Shown here: positions 50,956-56,989 of the stretch, one piece after another
How positions within the stretch are numbered: position 1 is the first letter of the stretch
How the letters are laid out: each line of letters starts with the position of its first letter
Notes under the pieces: generated by a model
What the model was told of the DNA's origin: nothing
Seen by the model: the letters and a program-made list of their open reading frames with translations, nothing else
Databases searched by the model: none
Made by a program: the position numbers and the translations under genes
Source of the DNA: Natronomonas gomsonensis
Lineage (GTDB): Archaea > Halobacteriota > Halobacteria > Halobacteriales > Haloarculaceae
DNA: 64,000 nucleotides
Assembly (NCBI RefSeq): GCF_013391635.1
Contig: NZ_JACAWU010000002.1
Span: 372,001 to 436,000, forward strand
Direction of reading: 5' to 3'

Positions 50956-52302
50956 TTACTCCTCTAGGATGTCGTCGGCGGCCGGTTCCGGTTCGTCGTC
51001 GTCCGCGCGGCGCATGACGTCGACGTGGTAGTGCTGGAGGATGTCCCGGCCGAGCAACAGCGGGTAGTCCATGTGGCTTCGGTCCTCGACGCTGGCAGTG
51101 ACGGTGTGTTGGGTGCCGCCGATGCCGACCACGAGGTCGACGACGGGGCGGGACCGACCGCTCTTGACGCTGCCCGATTTGATTTTGACGATGTCCTTGA
51201 TCGGGCCGGTACCGATTTCGGCGGCGAGGTGGGCGTCGATGCTCGTCCGAGTCGCGCCGGTGTCGGACTTCGCGAGCACCGACTTCGTGCCGCTGGTCCC
51301 CATCACGACGACGTCCTCGACGTAGCCGATGACGACCGTTTTCGTCGGCCCGGGGGCTTGCTTTCGCGGCATACACGCCGGTCTGGAGTCGTCGAGGTTC
51401 GCCGACAGTTCGTACACCCGCTCCTCGTCGACCTCGCCGCCGGCACGCTCGATGGCGAGGCGGGCGATGTGCGGTGCCGGCGAGCGCCCCGTCGCCTCGA
51501 ACAGACCCTTGAACCCGGCGGTCGGGTTGACCTCGAGGACGTAGTAGCCGTCATCGCCCTCGACGATGTCGACGCCGGCGTAGTCGAGTCCGACCACGTC
51601 GGTCGCCCGTTCGGCAATCGTGACGACTTCCTCGGGGAGGTCTTCGGTCGCGTCTTCGACCGATCCACCCAGGGCGACGTTCGTCCGCCACTCGCCTTCC
51701 GGTGCGTAGCGGTTCATCGCGCCGACGACGCGGCCGCCGACCGTGTACACTCGCAGGTCGTGGTGTTGCTGTTCGTCGTGTTCGATGAGTTCCTGGAGGA
51801 ACGCCTGTCGGGACCCGACCATCGAGTTGACGGGGTCGTCGGTGTCGAGTTTCCACGTCCCGCCGCCGTGGGTCCCGATTGCGGTTTTGTAAACGACTTC
51901 CTCGCCGAACTTCTCACGGCGACTGTTGAGCGTCTCTCCCGACAGCGCCAACAGCGCGTCGGGAACCTGAATGTCGGCTTCGGCCAACGCCGTCCCCGTC
52001 GCGAACTTGTGAATCGCGGTCATCGTCGACGTTGGGGTGTTCAACATCGGCCGCATCCGGTCGAGCATCGTCGCCAGTCCGAGTGCCTCCGCCGGCTGTT
52101 CTTCCTTCGAGAGCAACAGTCGATTGACCACGATATCGACCTCGGGTTCCAGCGTCACTTCGCCGTCCTCGATTTCGACGACGGTGTTCTCTTCGCGGAG
52201 CCACTCGGTATCGTATCCGAGTTGCTCGACCGCGTTGAGTATCGCTTTCGACTCCTTCGAACTGTGAAGGCTGAGAACGCCGACAGTGAGGTCAGAAGAC
52301 AT
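50956..52302 (-). CDS. RimK-type ATP-grasp ligase fused to a retropepsin-like (RimB/COG4067) domain
   Basis: A 448-residue fusion. Residues 1-290 are a RimK-like ATP-grasp ligase, with VYKTAIGTHGGGTW and the metal ligands in VLEVNPTAGFKG; such ligases join amino acids, often glutamate, to a carboxyl acceptor. Residues 320-430 are a retropepsin-type domain with the Asp347-Thr-Gly-Ala active-site motif and the closing LLLGRDIL, the family named ATP-dependent zinc protease or COG4067. An acidic tail follows. It faces an aspartoacylase-family hydrolase gene, starts 90 nt apart. Ligase and hydrolase functions in one protein suggest a reversible tag. Confidence 0.88.
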   Translation of the reverse strand: MSSDLTVGVLSLHSSKESKAILNAVEQLGYDTEWLREENTVVEIEDGEVTLEPEVDIVVNRLLLSKEEQPAEALGLATMLDRMRPMLNTPTSTMTAIHKFATGTALAEADIQVPDALLALSGETLNSRREKFGEEVVYKTAIGTHGGGTWKLDTDDPVNSMVGSRQAFLQELIEHDEQQHHDLRVYTVGGRVVGAMNRYAPEGEWRTNVALGGSVEDATEDLPEEVVTIAERATDVVGLDYAGVDIVEGDDGYYVLEVNPTAGFKGLFEATGRSPAPHIARLAIERAGGEVDEERVYELSANLDDSRPACMPRKQAPGPTKTVVIGYVEDVVVMGTSGTKSVLAKSDTGATRTSIDAHLAAEIGTGPIKDIVKIKSGSVKSGRSRPVVDLVVGIGGTQHTVTASVEDRSHMDYPLLLGRDILQHYHVDVMRRADDDEPEPAADDILEE

Positions 52303-52363
52303 ACTCCTACTCCAGTCGGTTTCGGCAAAACGCTAACGGTCGACGCTCCGCGAGTGCGGGGCC

Positions 52364-52370
52364 TTTTATA
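52364..52370 (+). promoter_or_regulatory. TATA box of the aspartoacylase-family gene
   Basis: TTTTATA is centred about 25 nt before ATG 52392 in the short intergenic space shared with the divergent RimK-retropepsin gene, so the two promoters are adjacent and may be coregulated. Confidence 0.55.
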
Positions 52371-52391
52371 TCCCTATCGCCTGGGTGGGGT

Positions 52392-53402
52392 ATGTCGGAA
52401 CCGTTCACGTACGACGGTGGGTCGGTCGCCCCCGGGGAGATAGCAAACGTCCGCTACACCGTCAGCGAAACGTACCTCGGCGACCCGGTCCGCGTTCCCG
52501 TCACCATCGTCAACGGCGAGCAAGACGGGCCGACTCTGTTCCTCTCGGCGGCCGCCCACGGCGACGAACTCAACGGCATCGAAATCGTTCGCGAGGTCGC
52601 CCACGAGTGGGACCACTCCGACCTCCACGGCACGCTCGTCTGTCTGCCCGTCCTCAACGTCCCGGCGTTTATCGCCCAACAGCGGTATCTCCCCATCTAC
52701 GACCGCGACCTCAACCGATCGTTTCCGGGCGACGATGCCTCGACGAGCGCGAAACGCATCGCCGCACGCATCTTCCGAAACTTCATCGAGCCCTGCGATC
52801 TCGGACTGGATTTCCACACCTCGACGCGTGGCCGAACCAACATGCTCCACGCCCGTGCGGATATGGAACACGGCGCGGTCGCACGCCTCGCCAACGCCTT
52901 CGCATCGAACGTCATCATCTCGACGCAAGGTCCGGAGGGAACGCTCCGCCGGGAAGCCGCCGACGCGGGGACGCCAACCGTCACCGTCGAGTTGGGCGAG
53001 GCTCACCGCTTCCAGCGCCCCCTCATCGACGAGGCCCTCGAGGGCGTCCTGTCGGTGATGGCCGAGTACGGAATGCGTGACACCGAGACGGTGAAGTGGC
53101 CCGGCTGGCGGACCGTCATCGACGGCTCCGACGAGAAGACGTGGCTCCGGGCCGACGCCGGCGGACTCGTCGAGATGCACCACGACCGTGGCTCGCTCGT
53201 CGAGGAAGGCGACCGGGTCTGTACCATCACGAACCCGTTCAAGACCGACTCGACGGTCATCCAGGCCCCGTTCACCGGCTTGCTCGTCGGCGTTCTGGAG
53301 AACCCGCTGGTGTACCCCGGCAACCCCCTGTGTCACCTGGTCAAACTCGACGAGGTGACCCTTCGGGCGATTCGCGGACGAAAACTCGCCGACCGGGCCT
53401 GA
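52392..53402 (+). CDS. Succinylglutamate desuccinylase/aspartoacylase family hydrolase
   Basis: A 336-residue zinc amidohydrolase (M14-like fold). Zinc site AAAHGDELNGIE, then RDLNRSFPG, DLGLDFHTSTRGRTN (third ligand His) and the catalytic Glu in TPTVTVELGEA. A C-terminal beta-rich domain with HHDRGSLVEEGDRV and NPFKTD is typical of AstE/ASPA-like proteins. The family cleaves N-acyl amino acids. The arrangement with the divergent RimK fusion recurs in other genomes as far as I recall. Confidence 0.9.
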   Translation: MSEPFTYDGGSVAPGEIANVRYTVSETYLGDPVRVPVTIVNGEQDGPTLFLSAAAHGDELNGIEIVREVAHEWDHSDLHGTLVCLPVLNVPAFIAQQRYLPIYDRDLNRSFPGDDASTSAKRIAARIFRNFIEPCDLGLDFHTSTRGRTNMLHARADMEHGAVARLANAFASNVIISTQGPEGTLRREAADAGTPTVTVELGEAHRFQRPLIDEALEGVLSVMAEYGMRDTETVKWPGWRTVIDGSDEKTWLRADAGGLVEMHHDRGSLVEEGDRVCTITNPFKTDSTVIQAPFTGLLVGVLENPLVYPGNPLCHLVKLDEVTLRAIRGRKLADRA

Positions 53403-53491: not shown

Positions 53492-53884
53492 ATGAGTCAA
53501 TCGTACGACCGAGGTCTGATAGAGGACTTCGGGCGGTGGCAGGAGTTCTCCGCCGGCATGTGGGCTTGGATTTTCCACAAGTTCACCGGCTGGGTGCTCA
53601 TCGGCTACCTGTTTACGCACATAGCCGTGTTGAGCACCTCGACGGTGGATGGGGCCACCTACACGATGACACTCCAGAGTCTGGAGAGTCTTCTGGTGGT
53701 CCGAATCCTCGAGGTCGGCCTGCTCGCAGTCGCCGTGTTCCACATCCTCAACGGCGTCCGCCTGTTGTTCGTCGACCTCGGTGTCGGCCTGGAATCGCAG
53801 GACAAGGCGTTCTACGCCGCACTGATAGTTTCCGCGGCCATCACGGTCGCGAGTATTCCGACGTTCCTCGTGGGGGCATTCTGA
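53492..53884 (+). CDS. sdhC: Succinate dehydrogenase cytochrome b subunit
   Basis: A 130-residue membrane anchor with three helices. The heme-b ligand is likely His in [19 protein letters not shown] or in [11 protein letters not shown]. It is the first gene of sdhCDBA; one base separates it from sdhD. It passes electrons from the Fe-S subunit to menaquinone. Confidence 0.93.
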
Positions 53885-53885
53885 G

Positions 53886-54251
53886 ATGGCTGACTACTAC
53901 TCCTCGTTCGAACCGAAGGGGACGCGGTGGCTGCTCCAGCGGCTCACCGCAGCGTTCCTCGTCGTCGTCTTGGCGTATCACTTCATGCTGCTGCACTTCG
54001 TCAACCACGCAGCGGAAGTGACCATCGCCGGGACGACCGCCCGGATGAGTCAGGTCGGCTACTTCATCACGATGGTGTCGTTCCTCGTCGCCGGGACGTT
54101 CCACGGCGTCAACGGCGTGTACAACGCCCTCGTCAATCAGGGCCTCGAGGGAACCCCGAAGACGGCCGTCAAGTGGCTGCTCGCCGTCGCCGGTGTCATG
54201 CTCGTCGTGCAGGGCATCCGCGTCGCAATCGCCATGACGAACCTCATCTGA
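53886..54251 (+). CDS. sdhD: Succinate dehydrogenase membrane subunit D
   Basis: A 121-residue second anchor with three helices, including LLQRLTAAFLVVVLAYHFMLLHF and a conserved GTFHGVNGVYN near the quinone/heme site. It starts 1 nt after sdhC ends and ends 1 nt before sdhB begins, a tightly packed operon. Confidence 0.93.
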   Translation: MADYYSSFEPKGTRWLLQRLTAAFLVVVLAYHFMLLHFVNHAAEVTIAGTTARMSQVGYFITMVSFLVAGTFHGVNGVYNALVNQGLEGTPKTAVKWLLAVAGVMLVVQGIRVAIAMTNLI

Positions 54252-54252
54252 T

Positions 54253-55116
54253 ATGAGCACGCAAGTAACCGAACAAGAAACCGAGACCGAACCGCAGGAA
54301 AAAGAGGAGTCCACTCACCAGGAGCGGCGACTCACCGAGAAACACGACCGCGCCGACATGCGCGAGCGTGCCGAGGCGAACCTGAAGGACGCCGAGGAGA
54401 CGGTGAAGCTGAAGGTGTTCCGGTACGACCCCGAAGTCGAGGGCAAGAAGGACCCGCGATTCGACACGTTCCGCGTGCCGTTCAAGAAGGGGATGACGGT
54501 GCTGGACGCGCTCATCTTCGCCCGGGACCACTTCGACTCGAGTCTCACCTTCCGTCACTCCTGTCGGCAGGCTATCTGTGGCTCCGACGCGCTGTTCGTC
54601 AACGGACGCCAGCGTCTCGGCTGTAAGACCCAGATGTCGGATCTGGATTGGCCGGTTCGCATCGAACCGCTCCCGCACTCCGAGGTCGTCAAGGACCTCG
54701 TCGTCGACATGGAGCACTTCTACGACCAGATGGAGGCCGTCGAGCCGTACTTCCAGACCGACGAACTCCCGTCCGGCGAAGAACAGAAACAGACCCGCGA
54801 GAACCGCGAGAAGGTGAAGATGTCCACGCGCTGTATCTGGTGTAGCGCGTGTATGTCCTCCTGTAACATCGCCGCCGGGGACAACGAGTATCTCGGCCCC
54901 GCGGCCATCAACAAGGCTTACCGCTTTGCGATGGACGAACGCGAAGGCGAGGCGATGAAGGAACACCGACTCAACATCATCGAGCAGGAACACGGTGTCT
55001 GGCGGTGTCAGACGCAGTTCTCCTGTACCGAGGTGTGTCCGAAGGACATCCCGCTGACCGAACACATCCAGGAACTGAAACGGGAAGCCGTCAAGAGCAA
55101 CCTGAAATTCTGGTAA
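54253..55116 (+). CDS. sdhB: Succinate dehydrogenase iron-sulfur subunit
   Basis: A 287-residue protein with a long acidic N-terminal extension (about 50 residues). [2Fe-2S]: Cys104, Cys109, Asp112 and Cys124, the Asp replacement known from the Escherichia enzyme. The [4Fe-4S] and [3Fe-4S] clusters use Cys194, Cys197, Cys200, Cys204 and Cys252, Cys258, Cys262. The C-terminal CTEVCPKDIPLTEHIQ is typical. It relays electrons from FAD to the membrane subunits. Confidence 0.96.
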   Translation: MSTQVTEQETETEPQEKEESTHQERRLTEKHDRADMRERAEANLKDAEETVKLKVFRYDPEVEGKKDPRFDTFRVPFKKGMTVLDALIFARDHFDSSLTFRHSCRQAICGSDALFVNGRQRLGCKTQMSDLDWPVRIEPLPHSEVVKDLVVDMEHFYDQMEAVEPYFQTDELPSGEEQKQTRENREKVKMSTRCIWCSACMSSCNIAAGDNEYLGPAAINKAYRFAMDEREGEAMKEHRLNIIEQEHGVWRCQTQFSCTEVCPKDIPLTEHIQELKREAVKSNLKFW

Positions 55117-55153
55117 CCGCAGGCTGAAGTCCACCGAATCCTAACTACAGACA

Positions 55154-56989
55154 ATGACACTACACGAACACGACGTTATCGTGGTCGGGGCCGGCGGCGC
55201 CGGACTCCGTGCGGCCATCGCGGCCCACGAGGAGGGCGCCGACGTGGCCATGGTCACGAAACTCCATCCGGTTCGCTCCCACACGGGCGCCGCGGAGGGT
55301 GGCATCAACGCCGCCTTGCGCGACGGCGACGACTGGGAACTGCACGCCTACGACACGATGAAGGGGTCGGACTACCTCGGCGACGCCCCCGCCATCGAGA
55401 CGCTGGCACAGGACGCCCCCGAAGAGGTCATCCAACTCGAACACTGGGGGATGCCGTTCTCGCGAGAGGACGACGGCCGCGTCTCCCAGCGACCCTTCGG
55501 CGGCCTCTCGTTCCCACGGACGACCTACGCCGGCGCCGAGACCGGCCACCACCTCCTGCACACGATGTACGAGCAGGTCGTCAAACGAGGCATCCAGGTG
55601 TACGACGAGTTCTACGTCTCCGAACTCGCCGTCACCGACCACGACGACCCCGAGGACCGCGAGTGCCACGGTGTCGTCGCCTACGACATCAAATCCGGCG
55701 AGGTCGTCGGCTTCCGAGCCACCGACGGCGTCGTTCTTGCCACCGGTGGCGACGGACAGGTGTTCGACCACACGACGAACGCCGTCGCCAACACCGGCGA
55801 CGGCCCGGCGATGGCCTACCGCGCCGGCGTCCCCGTCGAGGACATGGAGTTCGTCCAGTTCCACCCGACGACGCTGCCGTCGACCGGCGTCCTCATCTCC
55901 GAGGGTGTCCGTGGCGAAGGTGGTATCCTCTACAACGACGAGGGCGAGCGGTTCATGTTCGAGTACGGCTACGCGAGCAACGCCGGCGAACTCGCCTCCC
56001 GCGACGTGGTCGCCCGCGCCGAGTTGACCGAAGTCAACAACGGCCGCGGCATCAACGACGAGTACGTCCACCTCGACATGCGACACCTCGGCGACGAGCG
56101 CATCTACGACCGCCTCGAGAACATCATCCACCTCGCGGAGGACTTCGAGGGCGTCAACCCTGTCGAAGAACCGATGCCGGTCAAGCCCGGCCAGCACTAC
56201 CACATGGGCGGCATCGAGACAAACGAGAACGGCCAGACGTGCATCGACGGCCTCTACGCCGCCGGCGAGTGTGCGTGTGCGTCGGTCCACGGTTCGAACC
56301 GACTGGGCGGCAACGCCCTCCCCGAACTCATCGTTCTGGGTGCCCGCGCCGGCCACCACGCCGCCGGCAAGGACATGGAGACCGCACAGGTGCCGACCGG
56401 TCCCTCCGCGAAGAGCGAGGACGAAACGTCGCTGGAAACGCCGGTGTCACCGGGAGAAGTCGGTGTCGACGACGACGTCGTCGCCGACGGCGGTGCAATC
56501 GCCGACCCGAAGGCCGTCGTCGAGAACGCCGTCGAGCGCGAACGCCAGCGGATCGAGGAACTGCTGGAGCGCGACGGCACCAACCACGCCGAAATCCGCG
56601 AGGACCTCCAGAAGGCGATGACCGAGAACGTCAACGTCTTCCGCAACGAGGAGGGTCTCAAGAAGGCACTGGAGGTCATCCGTGAGTGCCGCGAGCGGTA
56701 CCAGGACGTCGCCGTCGCCGACCCATCGCGGACGTTCAACACCGACCTCATCCACACTATCGAGACGCGCAACCTCATCGACATCGCCGAGACCATCACC
56801 CTCGGCGCGCTCGCCCGAGAGGAGTTCCGCGGTGCCCACTGGCGGCAGGAACACCAGGAGCGAAAGGACGACGAGTGGCTGAAACACACGATGATTTCCT
56901 GGAACGGCGGCTCGCCGGACCTCTACTACAAGCCGGTCATCCTCGAAGGCGAGAACAAGGAGTACGAGCCGAAGGTTCGCTCGTACTGA
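55154..56989 (+). CDS. sdhA: Succinate dehydrogenase flavoprotein subunit
   Basis: A 611-residue catalytic subunit. FAD-binding GAGGAG at residues 12-17; covalent FAD probably at His43 (RSHTGAAEGG); the succinate site includes HYHMGGI; EFRGAHWRQEHQERKDDEWLKHT closes the protein. An acidic insert around residues 415-455 is haloarchaeal. The gene order sdhCDBA is usual for haloarchaea. Confidence 0.97.
   Translation: MTLHEHDVIVVGAGGAGLRAAIAAHEEGADVAMVTKLHPVRSHTGAAEGGINAALRDGDDWELHAYDTMKGSDYLGDAPAIETLAQDAPEEVIQLEHWGMPFSREDDGRVSQRPFGGLSFPRTTYAGAETGHHLLHTMYEQVVKRGIQVYDEFYVSELAVTDHDDPEDRECHGVVAYDIKSGEVVGFRATDGVVLATGGDGQVFDHTTNAVANTGDGPAMAYRAGVPVEDMEFVQFHPTTLPSTGVLISEGVRGEGGILYNDEGERFMFEYGYASNAGELASRDVVARAELTEVNNGRGINDEYVHLDMRHLGDERIYDRLENIIHLAEDFEGVNPVEEPMPVKPGQHYHMGGIETNENGQTCIDGLYAAGECACASVHGSNRLGGNALPELIVLGARAGHHAAGKDMETAQVPTGPSAKSEDETSLETPVSPGEVGVDDDVVADGGAIADPKAVVENAVERERQRIEELLERDGTNHAEIREDLQKAMTENVNVFRNEEGLKKALEVIRECRERYQDVAVADPSRTFNTDLIHTIETRNLIDIAETITLGALAREEFRGAHWRQEHQERKDDEWLKHTMISWNGGSPDLYYKPVILEGENKEYEPKVRSY

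Follow-up and report, generated by a model that had tools for sequence, protein, structure and literature searches.

The locus described here raises the question of what a RimK-type ATP-grasp ligase, a retropepsin-like protease and a zinc hydrolase do side by side in a haloarchaeon, and on which acceptor they would act. The window, by which we mean the whole stretch of 64,000 nucleotides from Natronomonas gomsonensis that was analysed, carries ligase and protease in a single 448-aa ORF, as the earlier note had read it, with PF08443 and PF05618 both matched and DTGA intact. The opposite-facing AstE/AspA-family hydrolase that the note had placed about 90 nt away is there as well, at 89 nt and with a PF24827 match. 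Both ORFs are complete and divergent, and the features are laid out as follows.

50956 to 52302, minus strand: RimK-type ligase/retropepsin fusion, 448 aa (ORF and profile matches).
51445 to 52290, minus strand: ATP-grasp (RimK/LysX-like) ligase domain, approximately aa 5 to 286 (profiles, AlphaFold model and Foldseek).
51013 to 51330, minus strand: RimB/RloA-like retropepsin domain, approximately aa 325 to 430, assigned from sequence alone.
51253 to 51267, minus strand: Ser-Asp-Thr-Gly-Ala catalytic motif, aa 346 to 350 (homologue alignment).
50959 to 51015, minus strand: variable acidic tail, aa 430 to 448, last residues Leu-Glu-Glu (homologue C-termini).
50959 to 50964, minus strand: C-terminal Glu-Glu, the proposed acceptor (final-residue conservation).
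52303 to 52391, no strand: divergent intergenic region of 89 nt (ORF ends).
52392 to 53402, plus strand: AstE/AspA-family zinc hydrolase, 336 aa, predicted exo-acting eraser (profiles and alignment).
53492 to 56989, plus strand: sdhCDBA operon, a conserved neighbour 3' of the hydrolase; context, outside the system (gene neighbourhood).

The ligase domain belongs to the RimK-like ATP-grasp superfamily and lies outside RimK in the strict sense. It matches the Pfam RimK family PF08443 (E 5.8e-26, aa 99 to 272) and exceeds the NCBIfam rimK_fam cut-off (152 bits versus 143), so that PF08443/TIGR00768 scores over the curated cut-offs go with an ATP-grasp fold. Profile scores of 120 bits for MptN, 117 for LysX and 62 for the S6-ligase model PRK10446 (cut-off 331) are all under the models' own cut-offs. 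Most of the ligase part was placed with fair confidence in the AlphaFold model, whose top Foldseek matches were RimK, ArgX and LysX structures, ArgX-LysW among them. Both PF08443 and PF05618 were matched in all 33 aligned fusion homologues, and the ATP-grasp motif L-E-V-N-P-T-A-G-F is conserved in the first 62 unique ones; proteins of identical sequence were counted once, which left 62 in the motif set and 127 for the analysis of C-termini. At 51664 to 51690 (aa 205 to 213) the fusion reads WRTNVALGG, with Leu where LysX has Arg before GG, and most orthologues likewise have VALGG where LysX has ARGG.

The C-terminal domain falls within the RimB/RloA family PF05618 (E 7.9e-11, above the cut-off, aa 367 to 432), with both D-T-G-A and the R-x-x-M-x-x-x-L-L-G-R motif present; RloA equivalog cut-offs are not reached. 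Its retropepsin fold is assigned from sequence, with a match of aa 338 to 429 to a solved retropepsin-like peptidase (PDB chain 9g59_A, E 1.1e-6), and this part is of low confidence in both AlphaFold runs, alone and within the fusion. K-S-D-T-G-A occupies aa 345 to 350; S-D-T-G-A shows no variation across the 62 unique homologues that made up the first set, in which the E-D-R-x-H-M ... L-L-G-R-D motifs are also conserved. Checking the ATP-grasp and DTGA residues across homologues, as the earlier note had proposed, thus showed active sites intact in nearly all of them, and the widespread degeneration that would have refuted the note's reading did not appear. The exceptions are plasmid-borne or second-copy haloarchaeal paralogues (L239/L255, L241, L251 and L254), which keep the ligase motifs, one stretch being missing in L251. 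In L239 (4980-6287), L241 (4986-6311), L251 and L254, DTGA is replaced by ANP, ADP, AEP or DTGR, and these paralogues read ARGG in the ligase motif. None of the four fetched stretches around them contained a hydrolase match, and from their sequences they are possibly regulatory pseudo-proteases.

The hydrolase matches PF24827 (AstE_AspA_cat, E 3.1e-49, over the cut-off) and has the H-x-x-E plus H, N-R and E residues of the AstE/AspA family, of which we take H-x-x-E and H to be the zinc ligands and E the catalytic residue. Its nearest characterised relatives are DoeB-type deacetylases, with which it shares H56, E59, H142, R109 and E200, but it stays below the equivalog cut-offs for DoeB (101 versus 403 bits), AstE (25 versus 306) and aspartoacylase (40 versus 180). 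Seven arginines (67, 105, 148, 155, 186, 206 and 253) are shared with the hydrolases of the three-gene operons described below and are absent from DoeB; going by the alignment, they would suit an acidic substrate. In enzymes of the AstE/AspA family, a conserved Asn-Arg pair is what holds an amino acid by its free carboxylate, and removal of a C-terminal residue would therefore come naturally to their chemistry. A paralogue 56% identical to the hydrolase lies elsewhere in the same genome (G000:C1:938720-939697, L232), and a relative on a Haloarcula plasmid (L244) adjoins methyltransferase genes.

The pair is a feature of Halobacteria at large rather than of this genome, and the other outcome by which the earlier note would have been refuted, a pair found together only here, did not occur. 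Among 391 Halobacteria genomes, called present at best E < 1e-60 and sorted by hand, 347 have both genes, 37 neither, 6 the hydrolase only and 1, which is 88% complete, the fusion only (fusion matches in 348, hydrolase matches in 353). Some positives may be paralogues or partial genes: four of the fusion matches lie between 1e-88 and 1e-123, and a single hydrolase match stands at 2e-85. The hydrolase paralogue in the window's own genome, at 1.9e-121, shows that a paralogue of this kind would pass the 1e-60 threshold, but the remaining hydrolase-positive genomes all have matches better than 1e-140. The 37 double lackers are spread over 18 genera. Clear sdhA is retained in 36 of them (G317 has only a 45% flavoprotein, and in G340 the gene is split over contigs), and we therefore reject mere deletion of the sdh region as the cause of the joint loss. 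Of 40 loci fetched, for the most part one from each genus, 39 bear the fusion, and 35 of these show divergent pairing. So do 72 of 80 named genomes, with a further 3 ending at a contig edge; the fusion stands without an adjacent hydrolase, despite room for one, in 4 of the 39 and 5 of the 80. This recurrence excludes chance adjacency. The hydrolase is linked to sdhCDBA in 31 of the 35 pair loci of the genus set. In one hydrolase-only genome (L258) the truncated end of a fusion gene still lies beside the hydrolase, and the pair is also found on plasmids, in Halolamina and, as a second copy 48% identical, in Halorarius. On a Salinirubellus plasmid (L240, 6855-7441), pieces of a hydrolase gene in several frames lie beside a fusion paralogue, a pair in decay.

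The same three activities recur as separate genes elsewhere. Outside Halobacteria, the 294 genomes of the same phylum contain two types of PF05618 protein. In all 15 genomes with a full-length classical rimB, each a methanogen by mcrA, rimB, rimK and an AspA-type hydrolase gene are adjacent and co-directional; the triad surrounds 15 of the 16 classical rimB copies, the second copy of one genome having no hydrolase, and one further genome has a rimB remnant only. The second type, of approximately 172 to 199 aa, was seen at 20 loci (L195 to L214), with neither RimK nor hydrolase nearby in any of them. A methanogen RimB query matched 25 bacterial plasmid records, of which we inspected 17 regions, the other 8 being from the same genera. 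Seven of the 17 are triads (Photobacterium, Salinivibrio twice, Acaryochloris, two Vibrio and Phaeobacter), 4 encode RimBK hybrids and 2 rimK-rimB, both kinds without the hydrolase, 1 has a partial rimK match only and 3 a RimB-like protein only. Gene linkage of RimK-like ligases with these hydrolases in several prokaryotes, which the earlier note had listed as known, is seen in methanogens and marine bacteria. Nearly all bacterial carriers belong to marine or saline genera; a glutamate-cysteine ligase gene is found close to one plasmid copy. In 4 of 6 annotated triads, all on Vibrionaceae plasmids (L222, L228, L216 and L219), an MscS-type channel gene lies within 3 kb, and three of these four also have Mg transporter genes nearby, a hint that the role may be osmotic.

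The single methanogen RimK that was scanned and the bacterial triad RimKs score above the S6-ligase cut-off, and methanogen RimK is 69 to 79% identical to the full-length RimKs of marine bacterial triads, which indicates that the operon probably moved between bacteria and methanogens. In trees of chosen locus subsets (40, 31 and 46 rows, built by a quick method with SH-aLRT support only), the ligase domain of the haloarchaeal fusion clusters with own-genome paralogues, apart from the triad RimKs of bacteria and methanogens; its protease domain forms a clade of its own; and the hydrolase adjoins the triad hydrolases with modest support. A recent bacterial origin of the fusion is thus unsupported by the trees, unlike that of the methanogen operon. 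The haloarchaeal form is either an old branch or the result of the three parts having been assembled more than once, and either reading strengthens the functional link between the three activities.

On which acceptor would these enzymes act? A search for ribosomal protein bS6 in 21 archaeal carriers found it in none of them, whereas the bacterial controls were positive (n=10), so the textbook RimK target is out and the acceptor must differ from the bacterial one. The fusion itself offers a candidate. Of 127 unique homologues, 125 have Glu as the final residue and 101 end in Glu-Glu, although the acidic tail after the last conserved motif varies freely from 8 to 29 residues; approximately one-sixth of the tails end in Leu-Glu, with no penultimate acid. 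On the core tree, the last residue requires at least 2 changes, position -2 at least 18, -3 at least 47, -4 at least 57 and tail length at least 48, and a mostly one-per-genus set, the window included, has terminal Glu in 39 of 40. The two fusions with other ends (L056 and L152) both carry runs of Glu a few residues before the stop. That haloarchaeal tails are acidic does not explain the terminal Glu, and we rejected this reading: a final Glu occurs in only 32 of 339 background haloarchaeal proteins and in 4 of 21 with tails as rich in Glu, and among neighbours the figure is 8 of 113 for the hydrolase and 0 for sdhA, sdhB and a GlmU-like protein. A DNA-level constraint was likewise rejected, because the stop codon varies (TAG 58, TAA 47 and TGA 22; n=127) and the bases downstream are not conserved. 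The constraint on the terminal Glu acts at the protein level. Fusion paralogues with an intact protease motif end in Glu-Glu in 8 of 8 cases, while among the four protease-degenerate ones two keep it (L239 and L241) and two have relaxed it (GE in L251 and GK in L254). The bacterial and methanogen triads show no conserved terminal Glu on either RimK or RimB, which would confine self-acceptance to the haloarchaea.

What is known of bacterial RimK makes such self-acceptance conceivable. In the excerpts of the source papers, the Pseudomonas fluorescens acceptor RpsF ends in Asp-Glu and RimB requires 5 to 6 contiguous Glu residues (PMC11957791), and RpsF-D139K escapes modification (PMC4741518). RimK is described, also in excerpt, as a tetramer whose glutamate sites face the core (PMC10092738), an arrangement that could bring a site within reach of the fusion's tail, in cis or in trans. 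Since the known acceptor of RimK is a C-terminal Glu and the fusion ends in a near-invariant one, the fusion's own tail is plausibly an acceptor of glutamate tagging. The acceptor that the earlier note left blank can thus be narrowed, with bS6 excluded and the tail as a candidate.

In our preferred reading, the pair is the haloarchaeal form of a module of three enzymes that together extend a protein C-terminus by an oligo-alpha-glutamate tail and take that tail off again. The best acceptor candidate is the fusion's own tail, and we put the chances of this reading at about even. The ATP-grasp domain would ligate glutamate onto a C-terminal Glu at the expense of ATP, and the retropepsin domain, like RimB, would cut long glutamate runs (above about five). 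RimB-type endoproteases need five to six contiguous glutamates, so a short stub would lie beyond them and be left to the zinc hydrolase, which would take it off one residue at a time. With the fusion's flexible tail as acceptor, in cis or in trans within an oligomer, the enzyme would be self-priming. That the three activities are functionally linked is strongly supported by joint loss, plasmid-borne pairs and the separate-gene triad operon, and to that extent the earlier idea of adding, trimming and removing an amino-acid tag gains ground; its chemistry, namely that glutamate is what is added, that removal is divided between an endo- and an exo-acting enzyme and that the fusion modifies itself, we infer as the best reading. 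Several observations count against it: the ligase profile is closer to MptN and LysX than to S6 ligase, and the domain groups away from triad RimK; the Arg that LysX has in its R-G-G motif is missing from most orthologues; and the sdhCDBA linkage of the hydrolase could point to a metabolic role. The tails that end in Leu-Glu, the unconserved ends of the triad enzymes and the fusion loci with no adjacent hydrolase weigh on the same side.

These observations leave room for rivals, and the prospect that one or another of them holds is, taking them all together, evenly balanced. LysX and ArgX use the C-terminal Glu of the carrier LysW, from which LysK releases the product in lysine and arginine biosynthesis. 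By analogy, an amino acid could be ligated to the gamma-carboxyl of the fusion's end Glu, with the tail bearing an intermediate and the hydrolase freeing the product as LysK does. The higher LysX than S6-ligase scores, the ArgX-LysW and LysX/ArgX structures among the top Foldseek matches and the near-invariant Glu all fit, but such a carrier would leave the retropepsin without a job, no conserved biosynthetic neighbours were seen at the pair loci save sdh, and triads elsewhere contain an S6-type RimK above the cut-off; we regard it as improbable. The same conservation of the end Glu would arise if it acted on the ligase or the protease as an inbuilt inhibitory pseudosubstrate or docking element, the true acceptor being another Glu-ended haloarchaeal protein. 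The relaxation of Glu-Glu in two of the four protease-degenerate paralogues, with retention in the other two, suggests that it may matter to the protease too. A non-extendable inhibitor need not occupy the extreme C-terminus, however, and Glu is nearly always last despite many changes in tail length, which makes this reading a distinctly unlikely one.

Unlikely, in our judgement, is a small-molecule pathway. The product of the ligase would be a solute or cofactor of N-acyl or dipeptide type, broken down by the hydrolase, with the retropepsin as a regulator of the ligase. Parallels would be RIMKLA, N-acetylaspartylglutamate and aspartoacylase, or the osmolyte NAGGN. The DoeB/AspA family of the hydrolase, the marine and saline bacterial carriers with MscS-type channel genes near Vibrionaceae triads, the sdh neighbours and the glutamate-cysteine ligase gene near one plasmid copy speak for such a pathway. 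It predicts neither an invariant end Glu on the enzyme nor a catalytically intact protease motif, and RimB is described in excerpts of PMC11957791 as polyglutamate recognising.

The oligo-glutamate module that we favour has several partial precedents. RimK-RimB, RimABK and the bacterial RimBK hybrid likewise join a RimK-type ligase and a retropepsin-like protease whose catalytic Asp motif is intact, according to the available parts of PMC11957791 and PMC10092738. The hybrid has its protease N-terminal, whereas here it is C-terminal, so the fusion falls outside RimBK as defined in the former paper's excerpts. The earlier note had named RimK-like ligases, but RimB and the RimBK hybrid (described in those excerpts of PMC11957791), which are the nearest precedent, went unnamed. 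In the RloABC operon of P. aeruginosa, a PF05618 aspartic peptidase likewise accompanies an ATP-grasp protein, but RloA is a secreted protein and RloB an inactive transglutaminase of the inner membrane, of which no counterpart was seen here; the portion of PMC12239564 that describes the operon names no AspA-type hydrolase. Compared with known RimK/RimB systems, the locus adds a zinc hydrolase, lacks bS6, has a ligase far from S6-type RimK and carries a conserved Glu-ended tail; what is new is the reversed domain order and the third enzyme. LysX and ArgX with LysW share the ATP-grasp superfamily with the fusion, but here biosynthetic genes do not adjoin and a protease is present. DoeB, an N-acetyl-diaminobutyrate deacetylase, has the AstE/AspA catalytic domain in common with the hydrolase, which differs in falling under the DoeB cut-off, in its own Arg signature and in having no ectoine genes adjoining. 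If the tail is a primer, self-priming polymerases of the glycogenin type are an analogy, although enzyme and polymer are unrelated. The amidoligase survey of Iyer and colleagues (2009) reportedly discusses RimK gene neighbourhoods with peptidases, and the triad may already have been reported; our search, limited to CC-licensed PMC papers, found no literature on haloarchaeal RimK.

Work on RimK and RimB has so far centred on bacterial ribosomal protein S6. The near-universal haloarchaeal pair and the methanogen operon, in S6-free hosts, indicate another target for the module. The near-invariant end Glu gives one directly testable acceptor candidate, the enzyme itself, and the zinc hydrolase is a plausible full eraser that complements the known endoprotease. 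We further speculate, while holding it to be possible but on balance doubtful, that the fusion both makes and edits poly-alpha-glutamate and primes the synthesis itself: the Glu at its end would serve as primer, the RimK domain would extend it, the retropepsin would release or shorten the chain, and the AspA-type enzyme would return the oligomer to glutamate. The product would then serve salt-in archaea as a reversible glutamate store or charge reservoir, through an S6-independent RimK/RimB chemistry shared with bacteria of salty habitats.
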